This document shows positions 7,498-12,759 of a DNA stretch of 64,000 nucleotides, in pieces (positions within the stretch are counted from its first letter, which is position 1; each line of letters starts with the position of its first letter). The notes beneath the pieces are model-generated. The model was not told the origin of the DNA. It made no database searches and worked only from the letters and a program-made list of their open reading frames with translations. The DNA is from Xanthomarina maritima (GTDB taxonomy: Bacteria; Bacteroidota; Bacteroidia; Flavobacteriales; Flavobacteriaceae). The DNA lies in the NCBI RefSeq assembly GCF_008084905.1, contig NZ_VSFC01000020.1:62001-126000 (forward strand), in the 5' to 3' direction. The position numbers and the translations under genes are program-made.

Positions 7498-8454
7498 TTA
7501 AAATACCTGCGATGCTATGGCTTTTATATTATCACTTTTTCCCATAGAATAGTAATGGAGAACTGGAATTCCTGCTTTTTGAAGCTCTTTAGATTGCTCA
7601 ATACACCACTCAATTCCTAATTGTCTTACTTGATTATTGTCTTTGCATTTTACCACTTCAAGTATTAATTCTTCTGGTAAATCTACATGAAAACGATGTG
7701 GAATTAAGTTTAGTTGTTTTTTCGTTGCTATAGGTTTTAAACCAGGAATAATAGGAACAGTTATACCCTCTTTTCTGCATTTTTTTACAAAATCGAAAAA
7801 CTTCTGATTGTCGAAAAACATTTGAGTAACAATATATTCTGCACCATTTTTAATTTTCTTTTTCAAGAAATGTATATCACTATCCAAACTTGGTGCTTCC
7901 ATATGTTTTTCTGGATAAGCAGCTACACCGACACAAAAATTGGTGGCTGAAGTATTAAGAAGTTCTTCATCTAAATAACTTCCACTATTTAACTCTGAAA
8001 TTTGTGTTACCAACTCACTTGCATAGTTGTGACCTTCTTTTTCTGCTCTAAAATAAGTTTCTGTTTTTACAGCATCGCCACGTAAAGCCATAACATTATT
8101 GATTCCTAAAAAATCTAAATCAATCAAGAAATTTTCTGTGTCTTCTCTTGTAAATCCACCACATAAAATATGCGGAATAGCATCTACATGATATTTGTTT
8201 TGAATAGCTGCACAAATTCCAACCGTTCCTGGACGTTTTTTAACTACCTTTTTTTGCAGCAATCCGTTTTCAAGTTCTTTATAAACATATTCTTCTCGAT
8301 GATAGGTAACATCAATAAATGGAGGTTTAAATTCCATTAAAGGGTCAATACTATCAAAAACAGATTGGATGTGTTGTCCTTTTAAAGGTGGTAAAATCTC
8401 AAATGAAAATTGTGTATTTCCATTTGCTTTTTTTATGTGTTCTGTTACTTTCAT
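7498..8454 (-). CDS. metF: Methylenetetrahydrofolate reductase
   Basis: 318 residues, a TIM-barrel FAD enzyme: FSFEILPP at the N-terminus, VTYHREEY, GINNVMALRGD near residue 118, and MFFDNQKFFDFVKKC, all typical of MetF. It reduces 5,10-methylene-THF to 5-methyl-THF, the methyl donor for MetH, and it is the last gene of the methionine operon. It is separated from metH2 by 155 bases that hold two copies of a palindromic repeat. One of these ends 1 base before the ATG and supplies an AGGAGG run just upstream of the start. Confidence 0.95.
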   Translation of the reverse strand: MKVTEHIKKANGNTQFSFEILPPLKGQHIQSVFDSIDPLMEFKPPFIDVTYHREEYVYKELENGLLQKKVVKKRPGTVGICAAIQNKYHVDAIPHILCGGFTREDTENFLIDLDFLGINNVMALRGDAVKTETYFRAEKEGHNYASELVTQISELNSGSYLDEELLNTSATNFCVGVAAYPEKHMEAPSLDSDIHFLKKKIKNGAEYIVTQMFFDNQKFFDFVKKCRKEGITVPIIPGLKPIATKKQLNLIPHRFHVDLPEELILEVVKCKDNNQVRQLGIEWCIEQSKELQKAGIPVLHYYSMGKSDNIKAIASQVF

Positions 8455-8455
8455 A

Positions 8456-8486
8456 GGCCTCCTAAATCCTCCATAGGAGGACTTTT
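8456..8486 (-). repeat. Palindromic element E1 (upstream of metF)
   Basis: On the minus strand it reads AAAGTCCTCC-TAT-GGAGGATTTAGGAGGCC in outline: a 6-bp stem (8467-8472 with 8476-8481) with a 3-base loop and a GATTTAGGAGG tail. It belongs with E2-E4 below. It ends directly before the metF ATG at 8454, and its tail gives an SD-like AGGAGG. Confidence 0.7.
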
Positions 8487-8591
8487 TATTTTTTTAAATT
8501 CTGATACTGTATTTAACTAGCAATATTTTCTATTTACAATTTGTCCATTTACTGATAACTTTAACCAGCTACAAAACCATGTTCATTTTGT

Positions 8592-8625
8592 GCCTTCTCT
8601 TTGGGAAGGCTAGGATAGGCTTAGG
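8592..8625 (+). repeat. Palindromic element E2 (end of metH2)
   Basis: GCCTTC and GAAGGC arms (8592-8597 and 8605-8610) are followed by a TAGGATAGGCTTAGG tail, the most diverged copy of the family. The tail overlaps the metH2 stop codon (8612-8610), so the last residues of MetH2 (NLSLS) are encoded by it. Confidence 0.55.
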
Positions 8626-11600
8626 TTAGGATTCAACCACTTTTCAGCTTCAACTTCAGAAATACTTCTACGTTTAGCATAATCTTTTACCTGATCTTCT
8701 TTTATTTTTCCGAGTCCGAAATATTTAGCTTCAGGACTGGCAAAATAGTAGCCACTAACACTTGCTGCTGGCCACATAGCTAAACTTTCAGTTAATTCAA
8801 CTCCTATATTTTCTTTTACAGCTAATAATTTCCAAATGGTCTTTTTCTCTAAATGATCTGGACATGCAGGATAACCAGGAGCTGGACGAATGCCTTTATA
8901 GTTTTCTTTAATTAAATCTTCATTAGTTAATGTTTCATTTTGAGCATAATTCCAATAATTAGTTCTTACTTCTTTGTGTAAATATTCGGCAAAGGCTTCA
9001 GCTAAACGGTCTGCGAGGGCTTTTATCATGATGGCGTTATAATCGTCATGATTTTTTTCAAATTCTTTTGCTAATGCTTCAGTTCCAAAACCAGTTGAAA
9101 CACAGAAACAACCTATATAATCTTGCTTCCCTGTGTCTTTGGGAGCAATAAAATCGGCTAAAGCTAAATTTGGTTTTCCTGATGCTTTCTTAGATTGCTG
9201 ACGAAGGGTAAGAAATTTAAATTTGCTTTTTTGAGATGCTTTGACAAGCTCATCATGACAGTTTTCAACTGAAACTTCAATATCGTCATCATTAACAGTA
9301 TTTGCAGAGAATAGACCGAAAACAGCTTTAGCTCTCAGGAGTTTTTCATTGAAAATACGATTGAGTAAAACTTTAGCATCTTTAAACAGCTCTTTAGCTT
9401 GTTCTCCAACAACATCATCTTCCAATATATTTGGATATTTACCATGTAAATCCCAGCTTCTAAAAAATGGACTCCAATCGATATATTCTTCAAGTTTTCT
9501 TAAATCAAAATCTTCTATAATCTGAGTCCCTAATTGTTTTGGTTTTACAATTTCAGACGCATTCCAATCTATTTGAAATTTATTTTTTCTTGCCTCTTCA
9601 ATTGTCAGGTATACTTTTTTCTTAGTACGTTTTAAAAACTGCTCTCTAAAGGCATTGTACTCTTCTCTAATTTGTTCTTTGAATACTTTATTGTCTTTCT
9701 GAAGCAAATTTCCAACAACGGTTACTGCTCTCGAAGCATCATTAATATGAACCACAGTATGATTATAGTTTGGAGCAATCTTAACAGACGTATGGGCTCT
9801 TGAAGTTGTGGCTCCACCTACAATTAACGGAATATCCAAATTCTTCTTTTCCATTTCTTTGGAAACATAAGCCATTTCATCTAATGAAGGTGTAATCAAA
9901 CCACTTAATCCAATAATATCAACTTTCTCTTTGATGGCCATTTCTATGATTTTTTCTGGAGGCACCATAACACCTAAATCGACTATCTCATAATTGTTAC
10001 AACCTAAAACAACACTTACAATATTTTTTCCAATATCATGCACATCGCCTTTTACTGTTGCCATTAAAATTTTTCCTGCATATCTAGCTTCTTCCGTCAC
10101 CAAAGGAGAAACTTCCAACTCAATCTTTATACGTTCTAAAACAAAATCAAGATTTGAAAGCACTTCATTATTTGTAAAACGAACAACTCTATAACCTTCA
10201 TTTTCCAACCATTTGGTTCTTTCTTCATCTGATGTTTTATTTTCTGGTAATTGATGAATGGAACCATCTATTTCAATGATTAAATTTTTCTTCAGACAAA
10301 TAAAATCTGCAATATAACTTCCAATAATATGTTGTCTTCTAAACTTATATCCTTCAAGTTTTTTACCACTTAACAAATCCCAAAGCAGCGCTTCAGCTTC
10401 TGTAGGTTGATTACGCATTTTTTTAGCATAATTCTTTAACAAATCATATAGCAATGGATCTGCAGTTTTCCAGTGAAAAGTCCCCTTTGGGGATTTAGGG
10501 GCTTTTTTTGCCTCTTCAATTAATGGTTGCAAATAAGCCACAGCTTTTTTCATAACTCTAGCCGATTTAACCACCTGTGGTAAGAACATTTTTCCGCTAC
10601 CAAACAAATCACCTACCACATTCATTCCAATCATTAAATGACCTTCAATAACTTCAATAGGTTTCTCAGAAGCTAAACGTGCTTCCTCAACATCTTCAAT
10701 TATAAAAGTATCAATCCCTTTTACTAAGGCATGTGTGATACGGTCTTGTAGGGGTTCTTTTCGCCACTCTAAAACGGCAACTTCAACATCTTTTTTATTT
10801 CCTTTTACTGTTTCAGCATAATCTAGCAAACGTTCTGTGGCATCTTCTCTTCTATCAAAAAACACATCTTCAACTAACTCTAATAATTCCTTATCAATTT
10901 CGTCGTACACCTCCAACATGGCAGGATTGACAATGCCTAAATTCATTCCGTGTTGAATGGCATGATATAAAAAAGAGGCATGCATCGCTTCGCGAACCGT
11001 ATCGTTTCCTCGAAATGAAAAAGACACGTTGCTAACGCCTCCTGAAACATTCGCATAAGGTAAATTTTCTCTGATCCATTTGGCTGCATTGAAAAAATCC
11101 ATGGCATTTTTTCTGTGTTCTTCCATTCCTGTAGCTACAGGAAAAATATTAGGATCGAAAATAATGTCTTGTGCTGGAAATTTCACTTTATTGACCAAAA
11201 TATCATAAGAACGTTTACAAATTTCTATCCTACGTTCTAAAGTATCTGCTTGACCTTCCTCATCAAATGCCATAACAATAACAGCTGCTCCATAACGCTT
11301 TACCAATTTTGCATGATGAATAAAGGCTTCTTCACCTTCTTTTAGACTGATAGAATTTACAACCGATTTCCCTTGAACCACTTTCAATCCTGCTTCAATA
11401 ATCTCCCATTTAGAGCTATCTATCATGATAGGAATTCGAGAAATATCTGGTTCGGAAGCAATTAAATTCAAGAATTTCGTCATGGCATAAACCCCATCCA
11501 GCATCCCTTCGTCCATATTCACATCTAGAATCTGAGCTCCACCATCCACCTGATGTCTTGCTACTTCTAAAGCTTCGTTATATTTTTCGTCTTTTATTAA

Positions 11601-11723
11601 ACGTAAAAATTTACGAGATCCAGTTACATTGGTTCTCTCACCTACATTAATAAAATTACTTTCTGGTGTTACAACTAAAGGCTCTAAACCAGACAATGTT
11701 AAATATCTTTGGTGTTTATTCAT
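8610..11723 (-). CDS. metH: Cobalamin-dependent methionine synthase, C-terminal subunit, with inserted DUF559 domain
   Basis: 1037 residues; the usual length for this half of a split MetH is about 890-900. In order: pterin-binding barrel (about 20-290; [21 protein letters not shown]), helical cap (about 320-400; [20 protein letters not shown]), a foreign DUF559 domain (about 405-543), the B12-binding Rossmann domain (about 544-670; GDVHDIGKN near 562 gives the axial histidine) and the SAM-dependent reactivation domain (about 690-1037; [12 protein letters not shown] near 943). It transfers methyl from methyl-THF to homocysteine together with MetH1, encoded 10 bases upstream. All MetH motifs are intact and the frame is open through the insert, so the enzyme may still work. 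Its C-terminus is recoded by repeat E2. Confidence 0.93.
10096..10510 (-). mobile_element. In-frame DUF559 (Vsr-like PD-(D/E)XK) nuclease insertion in metH2
   Basis: About 138 codons separate [10 protein letters not shown] from [17 protein letters not shown], which are joined by only a short linker in ordinary MetH. The insert reads [14 protein letters not shown], then [16 protein letters not shown] and [11 protein letters not shown], then [14 protein letters not shown]. This is the full DUF559 pattern, with the D and E-x-D residues of the PD-(D/E)XK fold present. The left edge (plus strand) is palindromic repeat E3 (10477-10510). The right edge (10096-10115) reads on the minus strand as a half-element GAAGTTTCTCCTTTGG, so the ends look like inverted copies of the same motif. 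Edges are approximate. That the segment is mobile is inferred from its foreign content and repeat borders. Confidence 0.75.
10477..10510 (+). repeat. Palindromic element E3 (left border of the DUF559 insert)
   Basis: AAAAGTCCCC-TTT-GGGGATTTAGGGGC in outline: the stem is 10481-10485 with 10489-10493, and the tail is GATTTAGGGGC. Translated on the minus strand it gives KAPKSPKG inside MetH2. The tail and lead-in match E4 closely. Confidence 0.75.
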
Positions 11724-11733
11724 AATTATAACT

Positions 11734-12759
11734 TTAAAAGTCCCTTCCTATTGGGAAGGGATTTAGGGATGGGCTCTTTCTAGGTTTATACTTTTTAGCC
11801 ACCTCAGCAATCGCTTTTATATGCTCTGGATTTGTACCACAACAGCCACCAATAATATTAATAAGTCCATCTTTTAGATAGTCTTCAATAAATTGCTGCA
11901 TCTCTTTAGGAGATTGATCATATTCTCCAAAGGCATTTGGTAATCCTGCATTTGGATGTGCTGATGTAAAAAACTCTGTTTCGTTAGATAAACGCTGTAA
12001 ATAAGGTTGCAATTGTTCTGCTCCAAGAGCACAATTAAACCCAACACTTAATAATGGAATATGCGAAATAGAAGTTAAAAAAGCTTCAACTGTTTGCCCA
12101 GATAAGGTTCTTCCTGAAGCATCTGTAATAGTTCCAGATACCATTATTGGAATATCAATGAGGCGCTCTTCTTTTACTTCTTCAATGGCAAATAAACAAG
12201 CTTTCGCATTTAGGGTATCAAAAATAGTTTCAACCAAAAGCACATCTACACCTCCATCTATTAAAGCTTCAACTTGCTGTTTGTAGGCAATTCTTAATTC
12301 GTCGAATGTAATGGCTCGAAATTCCGGCCTATTAACATCTGGCGATAAGCTAGCTGTTTTATTTGTTGGACCAATACTTCCAGCAACAAATCGTGGTTTT
12401 TCTGGATTTGCTTTGGAGAATTCATTGGCTACTTTTTTGGCAATTTTAGCAGATTCATAATTGAGTTCGTAGACCAAATTTTCCATATTGTAATCTGCCA
12501 TGGCTATAGTAGTTCCTGAAAAGGTATTGGTTTCTACAATATCTGCACCGGCTTCAAAATACAAACGGTGCACTTCTGCAATAGCTTCAGGTTGTGTGAG
12601 CGATAACAAATCGTTATTTCCTTTCAACGATGTTGGATAATCTTTAAAACGTTCGCCTCTAAAATCTTCTTCTGTAAATTTATAGCGCTGCAACATGGTT
12701 CCCATAGCACCATCGAGAACTAAAATGCGCTTTTGTATTTCTTCCTTTATGTCACTCAT
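11734..12759 (-). CDS. metH: Methionine synthase, homocysteine-binding subunit (MetH1)
   Basis: 341 residues, a homocysteine S-methyltransferase domain: [12 protein letters not shown] at residue 13, [35 protein letters not shown] with the first zinc cysteine near 240, and [11 protein letters not shown] near 306 with the paired zinc cysteines. It is the N-terminal module of MetH encoded as a separate protein, with the rest in metH2 10 bases downstream; this split arrangement is common in Flavobacteriaceae. The last dozen or so residues ([14 protein letters not shown]) do not look like MetH and are encoded by repeat element E4, which also provides the stop codon. Confidence 0.94.
11736..11779 (+). 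repeat. Palindromic element E4 (end of metH1)
   Basis: AAAAG lead-in, an 8-bp stem TCCCTTCC/GGAAGGGA (11741-11748 with 11754-11761), and the tail GATTTAGGGATGGGC. It has the same layout as E3 with a different stem sequence. It overlaps the 3' end and stop of metH1. Confidence 0.75.

Follow-up and report, generated by a model that had tools for sequence, protein, structure and literature searches.

The 64,000-nucleotide stretch of Xanthomarina maritima DNA analysed here (contig NZ_VSFC01000020.1, positions 62,001 to 126,000, in the following called the window) raises the question of how a complete nuclease domain of the family DUF559 came to lie in-frame inside the enzyme MetH2, and what connects this domain with four palindromic elements, E1 to E4, in and around the same gene. 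Our analysis points to a unit of motif, DUF559 gene and motif, which probably homes or transposes and would belong to a class not described before; DUF559 is the likely mobiliser of the repeat known as BoxC/PIT. Both the pairing of DUF559 with the motif and the mobility of the unit are well supported by the comparisons described below.

BoxC/PIT has been an orphan repeat since the 1990s, and the Pfam label of DUF559 is "unknown function". The repeat is now described as a class II intrastrand triplex motif, which consists of a pyrimidine arm and a purine arm, followed by a purine strand able to fold over onto the latter (Holder et al., 2015; PMC4666352). That article counts 23 motifs in E. coli MG1655, all of them intergenic and five times arranged as inverted pairs, reports neither an association with transposons, phages or plasmids nor a regulatory role in E. 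coli, and links BoxC motifs to genome instability. Among open-access articles we found none that connects DUF559 or YcjD, the DUF559 protein of E. coli K-12, with BoxC/PIT or with in-frame insertion.

A DUF559 unit within metH2

The core of the locus comprises the following features (window coordinates):

8610..11723, minus strand: host gene metH2, encoding a pterin-binding domain, B12 cap, the insert, a B12-binding domain and an activation domain
10087..10503, minus strand: inserted unit of 417 bp (139 codons), measured between its outer edges, in-frame in metH2 (residues ~407-545)
10116..10439, minus strand: DUF559 (PF04480) PD-(D/E)XK nuclease domain, MetH2 residues 429-536 (Pfam)
10481..10501, plus strand: E3, coding-sense left end of the unit, TCCCC.ttt.GGGGA.ttt.AGGGG, a class II intrastrand triplex motif by its sequence
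10087..10113, minus strand: decayed right end of the unit, the intact counterpart being GTCTCCCCTTTTGGGGGAGATTTAGAGGGGGC of locus L035

The DUF559 domain of MetH2 is complete (E = 7.6e-36; 122.7 bits against a Pfam cut-off of 20.6), lies after the B12-binding_2 cap and before the B12-binding domain, and keeps the putative active site D-ExDG..H intact in the alignment; with the Pfam cut-off passed and the conserved core present it belongs to the DUF559 family. It is the single DUF559 match in the whole 3.04 Mb genome, and Pfam recognises DUF559 as the only product encoded by the unit. The 139 inserted residues presumably stay in the mature protein. A preliminary description of the locus had already read a complete in-frame domain with an intact active site at this position, and the in-frame insert is confirmed here with its extent moved from residues 405-543 to about 407-545. 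Its placement of E3 at the left edge is reproduced by a motif finder, which we wrote for the class II plan (pyrimidine arm, complementary purine arm, a third purine strand mirroring the purine arm, short loops) and which matches at 10481-10501 on the plus strand. At the right edge there is indeed a unit end, which in this copy is a decayed end with just a weak hairpin left and not the opposite-sense half-copy assumed before.

The edges of the window unit were set by a double insertion in genome G221, by four insert-free alleles of the same genus and by arithmetic. G221 has one MetH gene with two inserts, which are 82.5% identical over 418 aligned bp, from AGCCCCCC to GGGGGGGGCT; their likeness ends at host sequence, and counted from AGCC to GGGC each insert is 417 bp long. 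No direct repeats were found at the borders of either insert (at site 2 the host reads GAAGT before and TTTCCGT after it). The relatives read at MetH site 2 carry other short sequences, and no pristine allele was seen among them. A classical DDE insertion sequence was rejected as a candidate: neither G221 insert has border repeats (no pristine G221 allele was seen), and only DUF559 is encoded. In L227, a distant stretch of G221, no triplex motif was found.

Seven other genomes of the same genus were compared. Four of them have metH2, in all four without the insert, and the other three have no metH2 match; in the roughly 11-kb neighbourhoods of the four insert-free genes no triplex motif was found (4/4).

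DUF559 genes are bracketed by triplex motifs in many phyla

Loci for a cross-phylum comparison were chosen by the protein alone and the motif was ignored. A scan of 84,980 species genomes, for which YcjD was aligned with five proteins from the family of the window to serve as query, gave at least 557 confirmed candidates, and the best 80 were analysed (two genomes are present twice, and in 13 of the 80 loci the matched stretch contains a stop, usually at the end). According to the record titles these loci belong to alpha-, beta-, gamma- and deltaproteobacteria, cyanobacteria, Gastranaerophilales, Chloroflexi, Verrucomicrobia, Omnitrophota and others. A motif lies within 300 bp of DUF559 in 68 of these 80 loci and on both sides in 51. 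Motif density is 2.7 per kb at less than 100 bp from the gene, 2.4 at 100-200 bp, 1.1 at 200-300 bp, 0.2 at 300-500 bp and 0.05-0.13 beyond. Compared with intergenic DNA more than 1 kb away (0.30 per kb), the excess near DUF559 (3.54 per kb) is 12-fold. Among loci with full flanks, 61/73 have at least one motif and 46/73 have motifs on both sides, compared with 37/619 and 1/619 for all control open reading frames and 10/133 and 0/133 for those of similar size. The first stem letters (up to 8) are common to some left and some right motif in 38 of the 51 two-sided loci. Motif pairs are common at the 80 loci; of the 166 motifs within 300 bp, 108 have their third strand directed towards the gene, whereas at the in-frame inserts described below 101 of 120 motifs have it directed outwards. 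In E. coli K-12 a BoxC copy with one mismatched pair is located 167 nt 3' of ycjD and a weak remnant at the ycjD end; the sapF-ycjD-fabI query is present to at least 80% in 3334 of 5426 genomes.

A second sample consisted of one DUF559 locus from each of 20 of the 21 strong-DUF559 genomes in the order of Kluyvera, which we take to be Enterobacterales. Here a motif was found within 350 bp in 16/20 loci and on both sides in 10/20 (15 and 9 without the weak locus L238), and stem types differ between lineages. One of the genomes of this order (G518, L241 1429-3702) has DUF559 in-frame in a type I specificity (Methylase_S) protein, with flanking triplex motifs. Across 197 genomes of the order, the BoxC pattern occurs in 8 of 21 genomes with DUF559 and in 7 of 176 without (p = 1.7e-5, uncorrected for phylogeny); G571 has 187 copies together with DUF559, and G593 has 89 copies together with a DUF559 fragment holding a stop. 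A corresponding genome pattern for the window's family, which is too strict and misses the window's own genome, gave a DUF559 match in 11 of 12 pattern genomes against 188 of 397 overall (p = 0.002); we give it little weight because some of the matches are weak (G260, 1.6e-6; G020, 2.3e-10; G282, 1.7e-13).

The statistical link between DUF559 and the palindromes, on which the preliminary description had staked its interpretation, is thus strong at the loci within 300 bp, in intergenic density, against control frames and in the second sample. In contrast to its reading as a Bacteroidota counterpart of another system, the pairing is no speciality of Bacteroidota: it occurs across numerous phyla and involves BoxC/PIT, a repeat already known.

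In-frame inserts at seven sites in six genes

In a scan of 397 genomes of the window's family, DUF559 was found in 188, weak matches included, and many of the matches listed lie in long frames. From the best matches listed we chose 57 embedded inserts and 17 free-standing genes, which are therefore not a random sample; among 40 stretches, L071 and L072 were unparsed, L056, L060 and L061 are duplicate loci and L070 is free-standing, and the fragment L014 was likewise unparsed. The 57 embedded copies occupy seven sites in six genes. LeuRS hosts 24 of them, between WIG[RK]S.GA and TTRPDTIFG, and RecG hosts 10, L089 among them; MetH has ten at site 1, including the window copy, and two at site 2, and the remainder lie in HemD (7, amino end), HisD (2, carboxyl end) and IleRS (2). 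Hosts were named by NCBIfam models with one representative each, and all except HemD, which scored below it, passed the cut-off of the matching model.

All 57 inserts have a triplex motif at one end at least and 49 at both (score 8), whereas 16 of the 584 control windows taken at these loci have one; at score 11 the numbers are 55/57, 44/57 and 15/584. The third strand matches its own stem in 0.765 of triads, whereas shuffling gives 0.641 +- 0.011 (0/1000; 85 of 114 ends, the 29 ends with a stem below 6 bp being omitted), a result that is inflated by kinship. Compared with ends from other hosts, the own third strand fits better in 58/85. Poor ends are seen in several HemD inserts and in L043 and L082. 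The catalytic motif is kept in 54 of the 57 inserts, and the other three have one change each. In a DUF559 tree of 112 columns, in which many forks are unresolved, non-HemD inserts are grouped apart from free-standing genes (91/93) and those of the same host cluster; the two MetH sites are intermingled, and RecG inserts stand together with those of IleRS.

Two side observations concern the host loops. At MetH site 2 of L022 an apparent solitary triplex motif is translated in-frame (SPLGGDLEAA), with no DUF559 at that site. The LeuRS genes L184 (G009) and L183 (G119) have the full occupied length and probably carry diverged inserts; the DUF559 matches of these genomes are weak (E 1.8e-12 and 2.8e-16), and in L184 the usual flanking peptides are unrecognisable.

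Empty sites, remnants and conflict with the host tree

RecG was searched in 60 genomes and gave some match in 59 (that of G602 too weak for RecG), of which one, G013, is occupied. A peptide of the KGP..S type is present at the insertion site in 7 of the 19 unoccupied RecG genes read; the genus of the window accounts for six of these, and the seventh belongs to a different genus (L214, which is G000:C6 of the window's genome, L215, L218, L220, L221, L222 and L224; e.g. GPSQSDQNES... and GPPKSSQNGPDSGAT). The clearest remnant is L221, the DNA of which retains both ends of the unit, GGCCCTCCTAAATCCTCCCAAAA...AGGGGCT, whereas the remnant in the RecG gene of the window's own genome is worn and the site in the same-genus L226 is pristine. 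These in-frame peptides are probable deletion scars, or they may alternatively stem from abortive or partial insertion.

At least 12 of 149 genomes have an occupied LeuRS. In a host tree of 43 LeuRS rows, 24 of them occupied through our choice of loci, occupancy requires 10 changes, 7 of which are forced by well-supported branches. The hosts L059 and L067 are 89% alike, whereas their inserts are only 44% alike (53% in another such comparison). As is characteristic of a homing gene, empty and occupied alleles exist side by side and the spread does not simply follow the host tree, apart from a vertical part marked by a correlation of r = 0.43 that is weighed below. The insertion is precise and patchy, with empty sites and probable scars, and thus passes the comparison of close relatives that the preliminary description had proposed as a check; the picture drawn there of an intein-less homing domain tolerated within a host enzyme fits the recurrent sites, the conflict with the LeuRS host tree and the catalytic residues kept in 54/57 inserts.

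Solitary motifs and neighbouring genes in the window

Around metH2, the window contains the following additional features:

7498..8454, minus strand: neighbouring gene metF (MTHFR)
8458..8481, minus strand: E1, triplex motif TCCTCC.tat.GGAGGA.ttt.AGGAGG, directly 5' of the metF start codon
8593..8619, plus strand: E2, triplex motif of the CTAGGA sub-type, overlapping the metH2 stop
11734..12759, minus strand: neighbouring gene metH1 (homocysteine S-methyltransferase half)
11741..11772, plus strand: E4, triplex motif TCCCTTCC.tattg.GGAAGGGA.ttt.AGGGATGG, forming the C-terminal codons of metH1

The finder gave exactly four matches in the 64-kb window, E1 to E4, each with a score of at least 10 and all contained in 3.3 kb around the insert. 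The reversed window gave one weak match, and 30 dinucleotide-shuffled windows gave a mean of 0.03 matches at a score of at least 10 (maximum 1) and of 0.77 at any score (maximum 4); four random positions in 64 kb would lie as close together as 3.3 kb with a probability of about 5e-4. The pattern AAAGTCC...GATTTAGG has 3 matches in the window (E1, E3 and E4; 0.00 expected) and 4 in the whole genome, 3 of them in the same 3.3 kb, while its reversed control has 2 genome matches at the same loose spacing. The fourth genomic match lies just 3' of the stop of an open reading frame read as glycosyltransferase-like from its sequence. Based on the pattern, shuffle, intergenic-density and control-frame comparisons, a chance origin of the palindromes can be ruled out.

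All four elements fit, at the level of sequence, the plan of the BoxC/PIT class II intrastrand triplex motif, and the "tail" of each element reads as the predicted third strand. The common plan proposed for E1 to E4 in the preliminary description therefore stands, with the restriction that E2 follows it as GGGAAGG-CTA-GGATAGG, without the letters AAAGTCC and GATTTAGG. The outer sequence that recurs is GGGGC/GCCCC. Single-strand folding predicts a hairpin for E1, E2 and E4, with E1 close to its shuffles (z = -1.5), whereas in E3 the pyrimidine arm preferably pairs with the third strand instead. The last metH1 codons of three relatives are replaced by E4 in the window, and the last metH2 codons differ at E2 from those of the single relative available for comparison. 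In window 8446-8481, the AGGAGG that forms the third strand of E1 stands just 5' of the metF start and resembles a ribosome-binding site supplied by the element.

Sequence likeness of the enzyme and comparison with known systems

The closest solved structure by sequence is 3hrl, an "endonuclease-like protein" (profile E = 4e-40). A remote match was obtained to 3r3p, a "mobile intron protein" (profile E = 2.6e-4, single sequence 0.042), which we take to be I-Bth0305I; profile matches at E 0.12 and above were regarded as noise. I-Bth0305I is given as the example of the EDxHD homing endonuclease family in PMC3943268. In a defence-system scan the window domain matched a homing endonuclease weakly (E = 0.0023), and YcjD gave no match. 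VsrA, a DUF559 protein of Caulobacter, is reported in PMC12907096 to trigger the SOS response when a methyltransferase is mutated, and the authors propose breaks during probable mismatch repair.

The preliminary description had seen in the locus a counterpart of REP sequences with RAYT transposases. In these REP/REPIN systems a small nuclease-type gene (RAYT, also TnpA-REP) stands beside palindromes that are thought to be moved by that gene, with solitary and paired copies elsewhere. The likeness of a small nuclease-type gene adjoining palindromes is evident, but the enzyme here is a PD-(D/E)XK nuclease of the DUF559 family, while RAYT is a Y1 HUH transposase, and the units described here lie in-frame in housekeeping genes. 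Y1 transposase (PF01797) has no match in the window's genome and Pfam finds no Y1 domain in the unit; because of the missing Y1_Tnp match, membership in REP/RAYT is rejected for this genome and the comparison remains an analogy. Inteins with a homing nuclease likewise place a nuclease domain in-frame in conserved enzymes at recurrent sites, and the unit resembles them in this but has no splicing domain. An intein is ruled out, as the only Pfam matches between the MetH domains are DUF559 and the overlapping MTES_1575.

The unit shows a remote sequence likeness to EDxHD/Vsr-like homing endonucleases such as I-Bth0305I and, like these, occupies recurrent sites in a patchy manner; unlike them it comes without intron or intein, has palindromic ends and is found in several genes. 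Rickettsia palindromic elements are, according to PMC10969869, also palindromes tolerated in-frame in unrelated genes, but they are about 150 bp long and encode a short peptide without a nuclease, so that the 417-bp unit with its complete nuclease cannot be one of them. Also close is BoxC/PIT itself, which shares the order of arm, loop, arm, linker and mirror purine strand, the sometimes inverted pairs and, in E. coli, a copy beside ycjD; as far as described in PMC4666352, the motifs of E. coli MG1655 are intergenic only, whereas here they form the ends of a DUF559 unit and are translated inside enzymes.

A model for the spread of DUF559 units and its alternatives

We propose that the autonomous unit of about 0.4 kb consists of a triplex motif of the BoxC/PIT type, the DUF559 gene and an inverted triplex motif. 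In its intergenic free-standing form it would be a small gene between motifs, and because the reading frame can run through both ends, it could also settle within a coding sequence, where it would form an in-frame domain at a tolerant loop of the protein. When the DNA is single-stranded or supercoiled, DUF559 would recognise the hairpin or triplex into which the ends of its unit fold and would cut at the foot of the fold. The unit might then home into alleles of the same site that are still empty and, now and again, enter a new site, without a clear target-site duplication, and internal deletion would remove it and leave in-frame scars. Solitary motifs like E1, E2 and E4 may be non-autonomous derivatives or leftovers; that DUF559 would also move solitary BoxC copies is the least tested step of the model. 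We favour a nuclease that reads folded ends and spreads the unit by break and repair because the inverted ends match, a clear duplication is missing, the occupancy is homing-like and empty sites retain remnants. The suggestion of the preliminary description that DUF559 spreads the elements thus holds for its link to the palindromes, whereas we infer its own catalysis of the spread. Whether DUF559 (YcjD) mobilises BoxC/PIT repeats across bacteria, as an element class separate from REP/RAYT, DDE elements and inteins, with a nuclease reading the folded triplex or hairpin end and with some units in-frame in essential enzymes (LeuRS, IleRS, MetH, RecG) where they would be hard for the host to lose, appears to us evenly balanced.

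Several observations weigh against this interpretation. We know of no strand-transfer activity in PD-(D/E)XK enzymes, and the right end of the window copy is decayed. Motifs are missing within 300 bp at 12 of the 80 cross-phylum loci, within 350 bp at 4 of the 20 loci of the second sample (two of these near a contig end) and at 8 of the 17 free-standing DUF559 genes of the window's family (score 8). In the order of Kluyvera, 7 of the 15 BoxC genomes have no full-length DUF559, G517 has 72 copies and no DUF559 match, and the BoxC pattern is missing from 13 of the 21 DUF559 genomes, several of which have another motif type; BoxC without full-length DUF559, or with a fragment of it, would fit the loss of a former mobiliser without proving it. 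A clean empty site for E. coli ycjD was not found, the two other strains read having efflux or regulator genes adjoining fabI or sapF. Fusion could explain the seven HemD and two HisD cases because the domain is terminal there. Host and insert distances of LeuRS are correlated (r = 0.43, 0/2000 permutations); the history of these inserts is therefore partly vertical, with descent and replacement mixed. Finally, the same tolerant loops contain other peptides that we take to be repeat-like (HAEPVEAS, SPRAQSRG and SEAKQS; L044, L045 and L047 at MetH site 2, L194 and L196 in LeuRS), and several repeat families may therefore insert in-frame there.

The alternative that survives best, although we consider it unlikely, is that DUF559 is a passenger and that another enzyme, either a RAYT-type Y1 transposase or host recombination, moves the palindromes, two inverted copies of which caught the nuclease gene in the manner of a composite transposon. 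Numerous solitary motif copies, some in genomes without full-length DUF559, would agree with this, as would Y1_Tnp matches in 17 of 20 DUF559 genomes searched and the other repeat-like peptides, by which in-frame repeat insertion is not special to DUF559. However, our comparison took a single gene family as its starting point, and this family proved to be bracketed in one phylum after another, with only one of the 619 control frames bracketed; the motifs on both sides often have common stem letters (38/51) while stem types are lineage-specific, Y1_Tnp has no match in G182, in G022 or in the genome of the window, and the active site is conserved in 54/57 inserts.

Even less probable is a Vsr-like repair nuclease that was captured beside hairpin or triplex hotspots of breakage or recombination and does not move the motifs. 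Hotspot capture predicts varied cargo and not matching inverted motifs on both sides, and it predicts neither a fixed-edge 417-bp unit repeated within one gene nor an active site retained inside MetH, LeuRS and RecG, even if the SOS response and probable mismatch repair ascribed to Caulobacter VsrA in PMC12907096 and the genome instability linked to BoxC in PMC4666352 speak in its favour. Ordinary domain accretion, in which MetH2 would have gained the domain once, long ago, and passed it on vertically while the nearby palindromes arose by chance, would account for the single group of MetH inserts in the DUF559 tree and the partly agreeing LeuRS distances but is very improbable, as insert and motifs are both missing at four same-genus metH2 genes, seven sites in six genes, RecG remnants and 10 LeuRS occupancy changes are observed, four strong window motifs stand against 0.03 expected, and the cross-phylum loci, the G221 double insertion and the LeuRS occupancy contradict it.

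A mobile unit of DUF559 and its motifs would have a role to offer for a family that Pfam lists as of unknown function, and it suggests, besides inteins and the Rickettsia palindromes, a further route by which selfish DNA may enter essential proteins. The pairing of DUF559 with BoxC/PIT supplies a candidate mobiliser for an orphan repeat, which is directly testable in E. coli K-12 with its ycjD gene and 23 repeat copies (count of PMC4666352).

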